Shown here piece after piece: positions 10,679 through 63,137 of a stretch of 64,000 nt of DNA; positions within the stretch are counted from its first letter, which is position 1; each line of letters starts with the position of its first letter. Both the position numbers and the translations under genes were made by a program. Source of the stretch: Klenkia soli (GTDB lineage: Bacteria > Actinomycetota > Actinomycetes > Mycobacteriales > Geodermatophilaceae); NCBI RefSeq assembly GCF_900103975.1, contig NZ_FNIR01000008.1, positions 124,001-188,000 of the forward strand, given 5' to 3'. Under the pieces are notes generated by a model. The model searched no databases and was not told where the DNA came from. It was given only the letters and a program-made list of their open reading frames with translations.

Positions 10679-11124
10679 CGGGCGGCGACGGCCACGGTGA
10701 CCCGGCCGTGCACCGTCTTGGGCACCAGCAGCTCCCCGCCCTCGGCCAGCGCCGCGGCCTCGGCCACCGACGGCGTGCCCAGCGCGGCGGCCACCCGGGC
10801 CGAGACCGTGGGCACTGCCACCTGCGCCAGCCGGTCGACGGTCAGCCCGACGAGGCGCCACCCGCGCGCGTCGGCCGCGGCCTGCACCCCGGGTTCGGCG
10901 GCGCGACGGTCGACGGTGGCCAGGGCCGTGACGCGGACGCCCGGTGGCAGCACGGCGTCGACGGCGGCCAGCACCTCGGCGGCGGTCACCCCGGGCCGCG
11001 CCCCCACCCCGACCACGGCGTGGATCAGCTGGGCTGATCCGACGCCGTCCTGGCTCACCGACGCCGGTGAGCCAGGACGGACGTCGGTCAACCCAGCTGA
11101 TCCACGCCGGGCGGTGGCGGTCAC
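10675..11124 (-). CDS. cobE: Cobalamin biosynthesis protein CobE / CbiG C-terminal domain, with palindrome-encoded N-terminal extension
   Basis: The 149-residue product contains the small CobE fold from about residue 37 on (VVGVGARPGVTAAEVLAAVD), related to the C-terminal half of CbiG. CobE is needed in the aerobic pathway but its exact reaction is unsettled. The GTG at 11124 overlaps the cobB stop (GTGA), like every junction in this operon, which supports this start. However, residues about 8-35 are encoded by an 85-bp near-perfect palindrome (11020-11104) that has no place in the family. A second GTG at 11016 would begin exactly at the family core but has no ribosome site. The protein therefore either carries a 35-residue foreign head or starts internally. 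Confidence 0.75.
   Translation of the reverse strand: MTATARRGSAGLTDVRPGSPASVSQDGVGSAQLIHAVVGVGARPGVTAAEVLAAVDAVLPPGVRVTALATVDRRAAEPGVQAAADARGWRLVGLTVDRLAQVAVPTVSARVAAALGTPSVAEAAALAEGGELLVPKTVHGRVTVAVAAR
11020..11104. repeat. 85-bp palindromic element at the start of cobE
   Basis: Two 41-base arms (11020-11060 and 11064-11104) face each other around a 3-5 base loop. The outer 14 bases (gtggatcagctggg) and inner 14 bases (gtcctggctcaccg) pair perfectly; between them I count one substitution and two single-base offsets. On the minus strand it is read in frame as part of cobE. A stem this long is far beyond what base composition gives and would form a very stable RNA hairpin just after the cobE start codon. 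Confidence 0.85.
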
Positions 11125-15153: not shown

Positions 15154-15199
15154 GGGTGCGTTCCTCTCCCCGGGTGTCCGCGCCCGGAGGTGGCAGGTG

Positions 15200-15289
15200 G
15201 CGACGGCGGCAGTTCCTGGCTCACCCCCGGAGGGGCTGACAGTGGCGGGACCGCGCCGGAGTTCCACCGGCTTCCTGCACTGCCGTCGC
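15200..15289 (-). ncRNA. Cobalamin riboswitch ahead of the chelatase-cobO-cobB-cobE-cobC operon
   Basis: Read on the minus strand, the segment has the hallmark cobalamin riboswitch core: GCAGGAAGCCGGTG, then the ligand-binding GCGGTCCCGCCACTGT, then the B12-box-like GAGCCAGGAACTGCC. Flanks gcgacggcag and gccgtcgc can pair as P1. It ends 47 bases upstream of the GTG at 15153, where a GGGAGAGG ribosome site lies, so translational control is likely. High adenosylcobalamin should lower expression of the downstream operon. Confidence 0.93.
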
Positions 15290-15321
15290 AGTTCGCCGCC
15301 AATGAGACCACGCCCGATGAC

Positions 15322-15823: not shown

Positions 15824-16251
15824 CCCCCGACCGGGAACGGGCCGCGGCCGACCTCGCCGCCCTCGACGCCGACCGGGCCGCGCTGGCCGACCGGGTGGCG
15901 CCCGCGGCCTGGTTCGGCCCGGCCCTGGGGCTGCTGCTGTTCGTGTTCCTCTCCTCGAACGCGTTCGACTCCCCGTGGGTGACCGTCCCGGCGCTGCTCG
16001 GCTTCGGCATCGGGATCGGTCTGCTGGTCAACGCCTACCGCGTCCGCACGGGGGTGTGGGCCAGCACCCCGCCGAGGCAGCTGGCCGGCTGGGCGGTGTT
16101 CGTGGTCGCCGTCCTGACGCCCACCTACCTGCTCGCCGACGACCACCCGTGGGTGTTCGTGGTGGCCGGGGCGGTGCTGGGCACGGCGATCGCCGTCCTG
16201 TCGCACCGCTGGACCCGGGCCTGGCAGCGCGAGCTGCGGGAGGGGGTGTGA
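15820..16251 (+). CDS. Four-helix membrane protein, second of a tandem pair
   Basis: The 143-residue product starts at a GTG that overlaps the preceding stop (GTGA). It repeats the layout of its neighbour: head ADLAALDADRAALADRV, four membrane segments, SPWVTVPAL in the second, LLVNAYRVRTG after it, and a C-terminal SHRWTRAWQRELREG. It looks like an old tandem duplication, since similarity is concentrated in the head and a few membrane motifs. Coupled translation suggests the two proteins may form a hetero-oligomer. No catalytic residues stand out; transport, sensing or envelope roles are all possible. Confidence 0.72.
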   Translation: MTPDRERAAADLAALDADRAALADRVAPAAWFGPALGLLLFVFLSSNAFDSPWVTVPALLGFGIGIGLLVNAYRVRTGVWASTPPRQLAGWAVFVVAVLTPTYLLADDHPWVFVVAGAVLGTAIAVLSHRWTRAWQRELREGV

Positions 16252-16541
16252 CCGCCGTCGAACCCCGCTTCGACCAGGTGGTGCACGCCCCACCGCGGCT
16301 GCAGGTCTGCGGCCTGCTCGCCGCCGTGGACACGATGGAGTTCGCCGCCGTGCGCGACGCGGTGGGCGTCAGCGACTCGGTGCTGTCCAAGCACGTCAAG
16401 CAGCTCGAGGACGCCGGCTACGTCCGGGTCCGCAAGGCCACGGTCGCCTCCCGGCAGCGCACCTCGCTCTCGCTGAGCCCGGAGGGCCGCCGGGCGTTCA
16501 CCGCCCACGTCGCCGAGCTCCGCCGCATCACCGGCGGCTGA
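16248..16541 (+). CDS. Small winged-helix transcriptional regulator
   Basis: The 97-residue protein is a single winged-helix domain of the MarR/ArsR-related small type. The recognition helix reads VGVSDSVLSKHVKQLEDAGYV, followed by the wing VRKATVASRQRTSLSLS and a closing helix beginning PEGRRAF. Proteins of this size act as dimers. It starts at a GTG overlapping the stop of the second membrane protein (GTGA) and is the last gene of the operon. The palindrome GGAAAGTC/GACTTTCC at the operon promoter is a natural candidate for its binding site, giving autoregulation; that link is inference. A dispersed 68-bp palindromic element follows 17 bp after the stop. Confidence 0.85.
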   Translation: MTAVEPRFDQVVHAPPRLQVCGLLAAVDTMEFAAVRDAVGVSDSVLSKHVKQLEDAGYVRVRKATVASRQRTSLSLSPEGRRAFTAHVAELRRITGG

Positions 16542-16558
16542 GCGCACCGGCCGCAGGG

Positions 16559-16626
16559 GTCTTCGCGGATCCCTGCAGGTCGTCGCCCATCGCGATGGCT
16601 GCGCACCCGCAAGAATTCGCGGACAC
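16559..16626. repeat. 68-bp dispersed palindromic element, copy 1
   Basis: This imperfect palindrome is centred on the perfect 12-bp ccatcgcgatgg, with arms of 28 bases that agree at about 18 positions; most mismatches are transitions that would still form G-U pairs in RNA. It matches the element at 63061-63128 over the same 68 bases with no gap (about 54 identical positions by hand count), including GCGGATCCCTGC and GAATTCGC. It lies 17 bp after the winged-helix gene. Confidence 0.8.
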
Positions 16627-16680
16627 CCCGGGGGTGGCGACCCCGGCGTGACCTGGGTCCCGGGTGCAGAGTGGACGGCG

Positions 16681-17727
16681 ATGAACCGGCGGCTGCTCCT
16701 CGACTGGCTGGCCGTGCTGCTGGTCGCCGCCGCCCTGTCGGGCCTGCTGACGCTGCTCGCGGTCCCCTCGGCCACCCTGTTCGCCGGGCTGGCCACCGGC
16801 CTGGGCCGGGCGCTGCTGGTGCCCCGTAAGCTGACCCTCCCCAAGCACGGCATGACCGGCGCGCAGGCCGTCGTCGGCGTCTCGATCGGGGCGCTGGTCT
16901 CGCTGTCCACGCTGCAGGCGATCGCGCGGGACTGGCTGCCGGTGGTCGGCGTGACGGTCGGGACCCTGCTGCTCAGCCTCGTGGCCGGCCGGCTGATGGC
17001 GCTGCGCCCCGGGGTCAGCCGGGTGACCGGGGCGTTCTCGATGATCGCCGGCGGAGCCTCGGGCATCACCGTGATGGCCCGCGAGCTCGGCGCCGACGCA
17101 CGCATGGTCGCCGTCCTGCAGTACCTGCGCGTGCTGCTGATCGTGGTGACGATGCCGGTGGTCGCCGCCGTCGGCTACGGCGCCTCGGCCTCCGGCGGGG
17201 GGACGGCGGCCGACGCCGGACCCGGCCCGTGGGCCGGCCTGCTGTTCACCGCGGTGAGCATCGCCGTGGGCATCCCGCTGGGCCGGCTGACCCGGATCCC
17301 GGTGGCCGCCCTGCTGGGCCCGATGCTGGTCGCCGCGACGCTCGACCTCACCGGCCTGTCCCGGGACGCCGCCGTGCCGGCCCTGCTCGAGAGCGCGGCG
17401 TTCCTGGTCATCGGCCTCCAGGTGGGGCTCTCGTTCACCCGGGAGAGCCTGCGGGTGGTGGGGCGCGCGCTGCCGCTGGCGCTGGCGATCATCGTGGCGC
17501 TGGTGCTCGCCTGCGCCGGGCTGGGGGCGGTGCTGGCCGCGACCGCCGACGTCAGCCCGCTCACCGCCTACCTGGCCACCACCCCGGGCGGGCTCTACGC
17601 GGTGCTGGCCACCGCCACCGAGAGCGGCGCCGACGCGACCGTGGTGCTCGCCGTCCAGGTGCTGCGGCTGTTCGTCATGCTGCTCACCGCCCCGCTGGTC
17701 TCCCGCTGGCTCCGCCGCGGGGACTGA
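16681..17727 (+). CDS. AbrB-family (pfam05145) integral membrane protein
   Basis: Despite its database name this family is not the Bacillus AbrB DNA-binding protein; it is a polytopic membrane protein with a duplicated half, sometimes linked to ammonia monooxygenase by old annotation. The 348-residue product has about ten hydrophobic helices. It shows the family's repeated features: a GALVSLS helix after GMTGAQAVVG in the first half, VTGAFSMIAGGASGITVMARELGAD in the middle (quoted segments GGASGITVMARELGAD), and TTPGGLYAVLATATESGAD near the end. The ATG at 16681 is chosen over an upstream ATG at 16648 because it begins just before the first helix. The substrate is unknown. Confidence 0.85.
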   Translation: MNRRLLLDWLAVLLVAAALSGLLTLLAVPSATLFAGLATGLGRALLVPRKLTLPKHGMTGAQAVVGVSIGALVSLSTLQAIARDWLPVVGVTVGTLLLSLVAGRLMALRPGVSRVTGAFSMIAGGASGITVMARELGADARMVAVLQYLRVLLIVVTMPVVAAVGYGASASGGGTAADAGPGPWAGLLFTAVSIAVGIPLGRLTRIPVAALLGPMLVAATLDLTGLSRDAAVPALLESAAFLVIGLQVGLSFTRESLRVVGRALPLALAIIVALVLACAGLGAVLAATADVSPLTAYLATTPGGLYAVLATATESGADATVVLAVQVLRLFVMLLTAPLVSRWLRRGD

Positions 17728-37887: not shown

Positions 37888-39456
37888 TCAGCCGGGGTAG
37901 GTGCGGCTGGTGTAGACCTGGCCGCTCCCCGTCACCCTCGTCTGGGTGCTGCCGATCATGACCAGGCAGCGCATGTCCACGGTGCCGGGGTCGAACTCGC
38001 CCAGGGTGGTCACGCGCAGCTCCTCCTCGGGGCCGCCGACGTCGCGGCCGACCACCACCACGGTGTCGGCCGACCGCACCTCCAGCAGCGCCTCGCGGGC
38101 GTCGAACAGCTGCTGCGGGCGCGCCTTGGAGCGCGGGTTGTAGAGCGCGATGACCAGGTCGGCGGCGGCCGCGTGGCGCAGGCGGTCCAGGACGACGTCC
38201 CACGGCTTGAGCACGTCCGACAGCGACAGGATGCAGAAGTCGTGGCCCAGCGGCGCACCCACCCGCGACGCCACCGCCTGGGCGGCGGTGATGCCGGGCA
38301 GCACCCGCACCGGGACGTCGGGGAAGTCCACCGCGGCCACCTCGAGCACCGCTGCGGCCATCGCGAACACCCCCGGGTCGCCGCTGGAGACCACCGCGAC
38401 CCGGCGCCCCGCGCGGGCCATCGCCAGGGCGGCCGCGGCGCGCTCGGCCTCGACCCGGTTGTCGCTGGGGTGCTTGACCTGCCGCGGGTTGGCCGCGACC
38501 CGGTCCAGGTAGGGGCCGTAGCCGACCAGGTCGTCGGCCTCGGCGAGGGCGGCCGCGGCCTCCGGCGTCGTCCAGTACCGCGCCCCGGGCCCGAGCCCGA
38601 CGACGGTCAGCGACCCTGCGCCCGCGACCGCCCCGACCGGCAAAGGATCCGTTGCACCCCCTGCCGGGCCCAGGACGGGGTGCAACGGATCCTTCGCCGG
38701 CTCATCGGTGCGCGCGGGGACGGCGGCGTTGCCCGGGCCGGTCAGCTCCGACGGCAGCAGCGCCAGCGAGAAGTAGGGCACCGTCTCGGGGTCGACGTCG
38801 GCCAGCGGCAGCACCCGCTGTCGGTCGGTGGTCGCCCGCTCGACGTACCAGGCGCGGTCCAGCACCCCGGCCACGGCGAAGGCGTCGCGGACGGCGGGGA
38901 AGGTGCGGCCCAGCTTCATCACCGCGGCGGAGTCGGCGGTCTCGAGCCAGGCGGCGAGCTCCTCGGTGGGCAGCGTGCCGGGCAGCACGGTGAGCACCTC
39001 GTCCCGCTCGACCAGCGGCCGGCCCAGCACCGCCGACGCGCCGGACACGCTGGTCACCCCGGGCACCACCTCGGTCGGGTACCGGTGCGCCAGCCGCTTG
39101 TGCATGTGCATGTACGAGCCGTAGAAGAACGGGTCGCCCTCGGCCAGGACGACGACGTCACGGCCGGCGTCGAGGTGGGCGGCCAGCCGGGCGGCGGCGG
39201 TCTCGTAGAACTCGTCGATGGCGCCCTGGTAGCCGCCGGGGTGGTCGGTGGTCTCGGTGGTGACCGGGTAGACCAGCAGCTCCTCGACCTGGCCGGCGCG
39301 CAGGTAGGGCTCGGCCAGCCCGCGGGCCACGGACCGACCGTGCCGCGCCGAGTGGAAGGCGACGACGTCGGCCGCGCCGATCAGCCGGGCGGCCTTGACC
39401 GTGACCAGCTCGGGGTCGCCCGGGCCCAGGCCGACCCCGTAGAGACGGCCGGTCAT
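37888..39456 (-). CDS. cobIJ: Fused precorrin-2 C20-methyltransferase / precorrin-3B C17-methyltransferase
   Basis: This 522-residue fusion carries two corrin methyltransferases. CobI (residues 1-235) has [30 protein letters not shown] and [13 protein letters not shown]. CobJ (about 280-522) has [41 protein letters not shown] and a final [10 protein letters not shown]-type region. CobI adds the C20 methyl and CobJ the C17 methyl with ring contraction. Such fusions are common in actinobacteria. The linker (about 245-275) is unusual: it is encoded by a 64-bp near-perfect palindrome (38637-38700) read in frame as [19 protein letters not shown]. The ATG overlaps the cobH stop by 4 bp. Confidence 0.95.
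38637..38700. repeat. 64-bp palindromic element in the cobI-cobJ linker
   Basis: Arms of 24 bases (38637-38660 and 38677-38700) match at 23 positions around a 16-base loop. Each contains GGATCCGTTGCACCCC. The element is translated in frame and encodes only linker sequence between the two enzyme domains. A match this long is not expected by chance even at this base composition. Confidence 0.88.
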
Positions 39457-58792: not shown

Positions 58793-58871
58793 CGCAGGAA
58801 ACCGGTGCGATCCCGGTGCGGTCCCGCCACTGTGAGCCCCTCGGGGTGAGCCAGACACTCCGGCTGCCGTG
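58793..58871 (+). ncRNA. Cobalamin riboswitch ahead of cobN
   Basis: The segment shows the riboswitch core GCAGGAAACCGGTGCGA, then GCGGTCCCGCCACTGTGAG, then GAGCCAGACACTCC as B12 box. CACGGCAG (58793-58800) pairs with CTGCCGTG (58864-58871) as the closing stem P1. The cobN ATG follows 41 bases later, with a GGGGGAAGG ribosome site between, so cobalamin probably blocks translation of cobN. Confidence 0.93.
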
Positions 58872-63050: not shown

Positions 63051-63060
63051 GGCCGGCGGG

Positions 63061-63128
63061 GTGTCCGCGGATCCCTGCGGGTGTCCGGCCATCACGATGA
63101 CCGGACACCCGCAGGAATTCGCTGACAC
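63061..63128. repeat. 68-bp dispersed palindromic element, copy 2
   Basis: Two 28-base arms (63061-63088 and 63101-63128) agree at 25 positions around a 12-base centre; outer ends GTGTC/GACAC, then GCGGATCCCTGCGGGTGTCC. It fills the gap between the convergent stops of the FKBP gene and the frameshifted gene at the right edge, so it may also act as a two-way terminator. The element at 16559-16626 is the second copy. Confidence 0.88.
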
Positions 63129-63137
63129 CCGGCTCGC

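Follow-up and report, generated by a model that had tools for sequence, protein, structure and literature searches.

A decayed palindrome in Klenkia soli and its relation to a genus-specific 76-bp family found on both sides of an AbiEi-like, putative nuclease gene

Our results indicate that a palindrome between two genes of Klenkia soli (copy 2) is best explained as a solo element, now decayed, from a family of 76-bp palindromes that is specific to the genus. We found copy 2 in a stretch of 64,000 nucleotides (the window). The larger result lies outside the window: elsewhere in this genome, sister elements of the family flank a gene that encodes an AbiEi-like protein with a putative nuclease part, and such genes are associated with palindromes well beyond this one. 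Window coordinates and strands of the features are:

16555-16630 (+): copy 2, a solo 76-bp palindrome of subfamily A, delimited by ungapped alignment and a leave-one-out profile
16558-16571 (+): unit U1 in the left arm of copy 2 (subfamily consensus GGTGTCCGCGGATC), placed by the 20-bp lag
16578-16591 (+): unit U2 in the left arm of copy 2 (subfamily consensus GGTGTCCGGCCATC), placed by the 20-bp lag
16587-16598 (no strand): intact palindromic centre of copy 2, CCATCGCGATGG, exact
16594-16607 (-): unit U2' in the right arm of copy 2, placed by its mirror position in the 76-bp frame
16614-16627 (-): unit U1' in the right arm of copy 2, placed in the same way
16248-16541 (+): gene upstream of copy 2, winged-helix protein (HTH_34, PF13601, E 3.5e-21)
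16681-17727 (+): gene downstream of copy 2, AbrB family (PF05145, E 1.9e-81)
63057-63132 (+): copy 1, a well-preserved subfamily-A element between convergent called genes, just after an FKBP gene

The first-pass annotation had described copy 2 as a 68-bp palindrome (16559-16626) and as a diverged copy of copy 1. The true unit is longer (76 bp, 16555-16630), and over its full length the two copies are 79% identical without a gap. Copy 1 as query retrieved copy 2 from the whole genome at E 4.2e-14 (blastn). When a sequence-only profile was built from the seven other subfamily-A elements, leaving out copy 2, it matched copy 2 at E 9.5e-15, while its top match in the window besides copies 1 and 2 reached only E 0.13. 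Thus, the similarity to copy 2 is not at background level, and chance likeness was rejected as its explanation. As annotated, the centre is perfect; the arms, said to agree at about 18 of 28 positions, agree at 19 of 28 by our count; counting across the whole 76-bp unit gives 26 of 38. The element was correctly placed just after a stop codon, since it begins 13 bp past the TGA at 16539-16541. That it is an older copy is plausible, but its decay is nothing special, as it shares 62 of 76 positions with the subfamily-A consensus (range 61-70, n = 8).

The annotation had also proposed a family with many members. The family is real, with at least 71 distinct places in seven of nine genus genomes (39-copy covariance model, E ≤ 0.01), but its presence in this genome is modest, with at least three subfamily-A copies and at least 13 places of the superfamily, one of them weak (E 0.009). 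It widened as we searched with DNA, then with an 8-copy covariance model and then with the 39-copy model; since the search scores the best first-look candidates, all counts are lower bounds. Besides the 13 places in this genome (G000), we recovered 15 in G001, 8 in G002, 7 in G003, 4 in G005, 7 in G006, and 17 in G007. The same model and threshold gave no elements in G004 or in the incomplete G008. Outside the genus there were only weak partial matches, in 2 of 103 other genomes of the taxonomic family. A pattern scan of contigs, which may omit records near the window, gave three matches, all in unrelated organisms.

We fetched 68 of the 71 places; four carried an indel and were excluded before the subfamily consensus was taken, and 65 were used for gene context. 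By inspection and nearest neighbours, we assigned 64 elements to subfamilies A (8), B (33), C (3), D (13), and E (7). The eight subfamily-A copies, three from this genome (the third on another contig) and five from two sister genomes, align over 76 bp without an indel. A sequence-only profile of the 56 non-A elements ranked the two window copies at the top (E 2.5e-6 and 1.4e-4; next, 0.77). Thus, the kinship between subfamilies is supported independently of their common hairpin shape.

Within each arm, the letters recur at a lag of 20 bp. In 39 elements, identity at this lag reached 0.68 in the left arm and 0.67 in the other, compared to 0.20-0.45 at the other lags tested (0.21-0.41 for the left arm), and the element therefore consists of four 20-bp units, U1-U2-U2′-U1′. 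The subfamily consensus sequences of U1 and U2 share the same letter at 11 of 14 positions. Mutual information at lag 20 was weak (mean 0.19 sd), being the highest among the lags tried, with columns 10/30 as the best pair (5.5); the signal from plain identity is clear. The consensus element ends in GGGGTG.../...CACCCC.

We compared the sites of both copies across the genus. All gene calls, for window genes and for element contexts, come from a home-made codon-position model, which starts the AbrB-family gene at 16681 (the open reading frame listing also allows 16648). The winged-helix and AbrB-family genes adjoin in all nine genomes, and the palindrome between them is absent from all eight sister genomes, both by eye and in the element search. 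Thus, of the nine genomes compared, only this one has copy 2. In G002, G005, and G006, the two genes are separated by an additional 500 bp or so, which probably represent another gene. The site of copy 1, past the FKBP gene, is occupied by a subfamily-B element in G003 and by a D element adjoining a B element in G001, and in the six remaining genus genomes it is empty of elements. We read this as a target that was hit repeatedly or as the replacement of one copy by another.

Solo elements lie mainly just past gene ends. Among 53 of them, which are not independent because some seem to occupy the same sites in different species, 30 lie in convergent, 19 in co-directional and 4 in divergent gene gaps, and none within called genes; 31 of 127 pooled gaps of at least 20 bp are convergent. 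Forty-nine of the 53 are downstream of one or both of their neighbouring called genes, and in 40 cases a gene 3′ end is no more than 35 bp away. Six tandem pairs were also present, with gaps of about -3, -1, 5, 9, 57, and 133 bp. Every pair joins an A or B element to a D or E element; for two of the twelve members, both with indels, the subfamily was judged by eye. The simplest reading is that tandem pairs arise by insertion adjoining an existing copy. Subfamilies A and B may be the older members; in G007, B flanks the nuclease-like gene.

Element pairs about 1.25-1.35 kb apart pointed to a single gene, which in this genome lies at C15:63604-64668 between genes that by eye are NUDIX-like and CoA-binding-like. 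An orthologue at least 75% identical is present in six of the nine genus genomes, once per genome, with elements on both sides in all six; 12 of the 71 places flank this gene. In G004, which has no element genome-wide, the gene is absent and the matched parts of the neighbours are about 12 bp apart. G003 lacks the gene at the locus and has no close orthologue, yet carries seven elements elsewhere, so a loss of the gene must be assumed. The flanking subfamily differs between genomes (C in G000, D in G001 and G002, E in G005 and G006, and B in G007), and in all six, solo copies of it occur in the genome too, although for G000 the support is loose (one aligned solo C element with 66% identity to the flank, plus another that carries an indel). 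Judged by coordinates, subfamily-A elements are not close to any nuclease match of the genus genomes. The orthologue in G006 (L147, G006:C4:2674664-2675735) is matched in two reading frames, so that the gene is possibly broken; both of its flank palindromes are present.

Residues 11-190 of the encoded protein match AbiEi (PADLOC, E 5.4e-16), with an AbiEi_4 match (E 5.9e-5) below the Pfam cut-off. The Pfam scan detected no nuclease match in this protein and no HUH family. In 57 aligned homologues, PD-(D/E)XK-type residues are conserved: D246 in 100%, E214 in 96%, D259 in 91%, and E257 in 89%, with S211 also falling within this 89-100% set. By our own assignment from the alignment, S211, E214, D246, E257, and D259 form a PD-(D/E)XK motif, making the protein a putative nuclease. 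Three of four scanned homologues match PF18741 (MTES_1575) and/or PF04480 (DUF559), with a best E of 1.3e-10. No relative was found in a PDB sequence search at E ≤ 1, and an NCBIfam scan of three proteins gave only one weak, irrelevant match. The divergent homologue L157 had no PADLOC match.

We asked whether more distant relatives of the gene also lie between repeats. Divergent nuclease paralogues number 2-8 matches per genus genome and up to 12 elsewhere, and in a sample of the phylum homologues were present in 35 of 149 genomes (our own included) and absent from 114. At 30 genus loci, a palindrome scoring at least 22/30 lay beyond both ends of the gene in 17 and beyond one end in 9; among the other four, L143 and L144 have family elements on both sides. 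Such palindromes occurred in 62 of 150 nuclease flanks compared to 37 of 820 window intervals, and on both flanks of 16 of 75 nuclease loci compared to 0 of 410 window intervals, these controls all coming from one genome. To detect a repeat common to both flanks, we compared 400 bp upstream with 400 bp downstream, taking the 99th percentile of 410 window controls as the threshold. A shared repeat was found at 47 of 67 unique loci, that is, at 30 of 33 in the genus, which are related by descent and not independent, and at 17 of 34 in other families or classes. Of 600 mismatched flank pairs, drawn from 75 loci including duplicates (67 unique), three exceeded the same threshold. At the remaining 20 loci, of which 17 lie outside the genus, no shared repeat exceeded the threshold.

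In other genera, the nearest homologues (54-61% identical) have a shared flank repeat in 19 of 24 fetched cases, using 450-bp flanks with the threshold derived from 400-bp flanks. Their palindromes differ in sequence from the focal family, the best match to the focal model being a flank palindrome of L261 (E 0.011). The 20-bp periodicity recurs: identity at this lag was 0.49 in the flanks from other genera, compared to 0.24-0.36 at other lags (64 arms), and 0.40 at the genus paralogues, compared to 0.25-0.35 (74 arms). Paired flanking palindromes alone are no proof, however, because a second gene, apparently lying between two palindromes of another family (G000:C18, 283063 and 284455), has them too; by eye it looks like a dehydrogenase instead of a nuclease.

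Other palindromes came to light in these searches. The window contains a longer one at 11016-11109 (84% agreement between arms), of which this genome holds six more strong copies; its core, GTCCTGGCTCACCG/CGGTGAGCCAGGAC, recurs in the flanks of the nuclease paralogue L157 (G003). At L215 (G000:C18), open reading frames end at 1578 and 184, one of them inside a palindrome of the 11016 family, and both end in DQLG, as if palindromes of that family were supplying new C-termini. Another palindrome, at 38637-38700 (88% complementary), lies inside a called tetrapyrrole-methylase gene, unlike the intergenic family, and the 273 fetched loci contain no exact match to an 18-bp piece of it. Near L187 (G144), a distant nuclease homologue, there are five palindrome calls, several of which belong to one family and lie close together.

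A model that we hold to be somewhat more probable than not is that of a REP/RAYT-like system with an unrelated enzyme, in which the 76-bp family is the cognate repeat of the AbiEi-like, PD-(D/E)XK-like protein. It builds on the homology of the elements, their four-unit build, their presence or absence between species (copy 2 among them), the bracketed nuclease-like gene with solo members of the bordering subfamily elsewhere in each genome, the flank repeats of divergent homologues and the six tandem pairs. AbiEi of Streptococcus and Rv2827c of Mycobacterium are reported to bind two and four 23-bp inverted repeats, respectively, upstream of their own genes (PMC7319586). Since the size and number of our units resemble these sites, the AbiEi-like part likely binds here too, and its targets would be the 20-bp units. 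The nuclease part would then make a break at or beside a palindrome or a target site, into which a palindrome could be copied by repair or replication. The expected outcome would be scattered solo palindromes, retained mainly just past gene ends, where insertion would be nearly harmless. An earlier form of this enzyme may have dispersed subfamily A. Several points count against this model: subfamily A is away from every nuclease match, a loss must be assumed in G003, 20 of the 67 loci have no shared repeat at the threshold, Pfam gives the focal protein no nuclease match and an AbiEi_4 match below cut-off, and L157 lacks a PADLOC match. Neither a target-site duplication nor a clean insertion junction was seen.

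Alternatively, the palindromes could be operators, with the AbiEi-like protein as a repressor that regulates its own gene and the solo copies regulating their neighbours, no mobility being involved. The upstream inverted repeats bound by AbiEi-type proteins (PMC7319586) would suit such a regulon, as would four units per palindrome, close in size to AbiEi sites. However, the nuclease-like gene has a copy past its 3′ end as well, and solo elements are placed badly for operators, with 49 of 53 downstream of a called gene and only 4 between divergent genes. As sites also vary between species, and subfamily numbers between genomes, we consider a regulon unlikely, although it is the strongest of the competing explanations.

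It is also conceivable that palindrome, gene, and palindrome together form the mobile unit, so that solo copies are scars left when recombination between the flanks removes the gene. The complete unit at one locus in six genomes and its absence from G004 would be expected under this explanation, as would divergent paralogues with flanks of their own. Yet palindromes outnumber the gene (at least 71 places, 12 of them flanking), some are in tandem, each genome has a single gene that is at least 75% identical, and subfamily A is near no such gene. Thus, we regard scars of a flanked gene as improbable, more so than a regulon.

The fold of the elements bears on a further explanation, that they are bidirectional terminators or mRNA 3′-end hairpins spread by ordinary recombination; the annotation had likewise raised terminator use for copy 2. 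Copy 1 folds strongly (z -8.9 on the + strand and -9.6 on the - strand; 0 of 200 shuffles as good), and the convergent setting of 30 of 53 solo elements, with 40 of 53 close to a gene 3′ end, would suit a terminator. Copy 2 folds only slightly better than its shuffles (z -1.9 on the + strand, with 9 of 200 shuffles equally good, and -2.8 on the - strand, with 3 of 200). Because this fold alone is weak, copy 2 is known by homology and not by its hairpin. We found no T-run terminator-like sites in 16000-17200 and no Rfam match at gathering score over the element; the window gave only two cobalamin riboswitches (RF00174), at 15191-15315 (-) and 58797-58858 (+).

We examined arm changes in the alignment of 39 elements from mixed subfamilies. 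There, 114 cells had a change in both arms, compared to 69 in shuffles (0 of 500 reaching this value), and the covariation score was 0.244 compared to 0.146, which favours a hairpin; the column pairs changed on both sides numbered 23, compared to 20.9 in shuffles (85 of 500). Within subfamilies, arm changes are mostly unpaired and the excess of paired changes is small; in subfamily B, there were 72 double changes compared to 50 expected, 29 of them paired. Our reading is that each subfamily founder was palindromic and that later copies decayed, which leaves the proposed use of copy 2 as a terminator unsupported. A terminator would also leave the direct 20-bp units and the flanked gene unexplained, and we consider this explanation very unlikely. 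Chance resemblance among GC-rich palindromes can be dismissed, since although covariance models favour any long GC-rich hairpin (other window palindromes reached E 0.004-0.008; R1, filters off), copy 2 is recovered by sequence-only profiles, both by the leave-one-out profile and by that of the non-A elements, which places both window copies at the top.

The REP/RAYT-like model may extend further. Under a wider version, to which we give even odds, short mobile palindromes across the phylum would be driven by AbiEi-like/PD-(D/E)XK nucleases, with each lineage having its own four-unit palindrome, units and protein co-evolving, and new copies often landing beside old ones.

Short dispersed palindromes are common in bacteria. 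ERIC, Correia/NEMIS, and YPAL are small intergenic palindromic repeats near gene ends and are lineage-specific; none of them is known to have a link of this kind to a nuclease. To our knowledge, only HUH/RAYT enzymes have so far been tied to dispersed short palindromes. The closest parallel is the REPtron (REP/BIME with RAYT/TnpA-REP), in which short palindromes lie beside a mostly single-copy gene and most are dispersed (PMC8266576). As in a REPtron, the repeats described here both adjoin the gene and are dispersed in the genome. However, the gene encodes an AbiEi-like, PD-(D/E)XK-like protein and not an HUH transposase, and the element is 76 bp long with four 20-bp units, whereas a REP is a 20-40 bp repeat (PMC3733652). 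The GTAG at the hairpin foot is also absent, given the GGGGTG.../...CACCCC ends. Because the enzyme is not HUH and GTAG is absent, the palindrome system is not a member of the REPtrons.

Two protein groups provide further comparisons. The AbiEi antitoxins (AbiE, Rv2827c) resemble the focal protein over residues 11-190 and have inverted-repeat sites of similar size (PMC7319586), but here a nuclease-like part follows, and the palindromes are on both sides of the gene and dispersed. By eye, the NUDIX-like and CoA-binding-like neighbours of the focal gene include no evident partner of the AbiEii nucleotidyltransferase toxin type. The MTES_1575/DUF559 PD-(D/E)XK nucleases are linked to the system by the Pfam matches of its homologues (PF18741/PF04480) and the conserved acidic residues, whereas Pfam detects neither domain in the focal protein. 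In searches of open-licence literature, we found no link between MTES_1575/DUF559-type nucleases and cognate palindromes and no description of these nuclease-like genes as associated with palindromes of their own; this is weak evidence of novelty. For the CGTC palindromic repeats, PMC3733652 states that there are no associated transposase genes.

If our model is correct, a second, unrelated enzyme family is bracketed by its own palindromes, and such partnerships arose more than once. Under the wider version, a REPtron counterpart would have evolved independently, and many AbiEi/DUF559-type proteins, a large group so far unexplained, would gain a function. The partnership could also help to account for the many divergent AbiEi-like nuclease homologues in some of these genomes, and it would offer a testable protein-DNA code in the form of four 20-bp units with variable bases that shift with the lineage.
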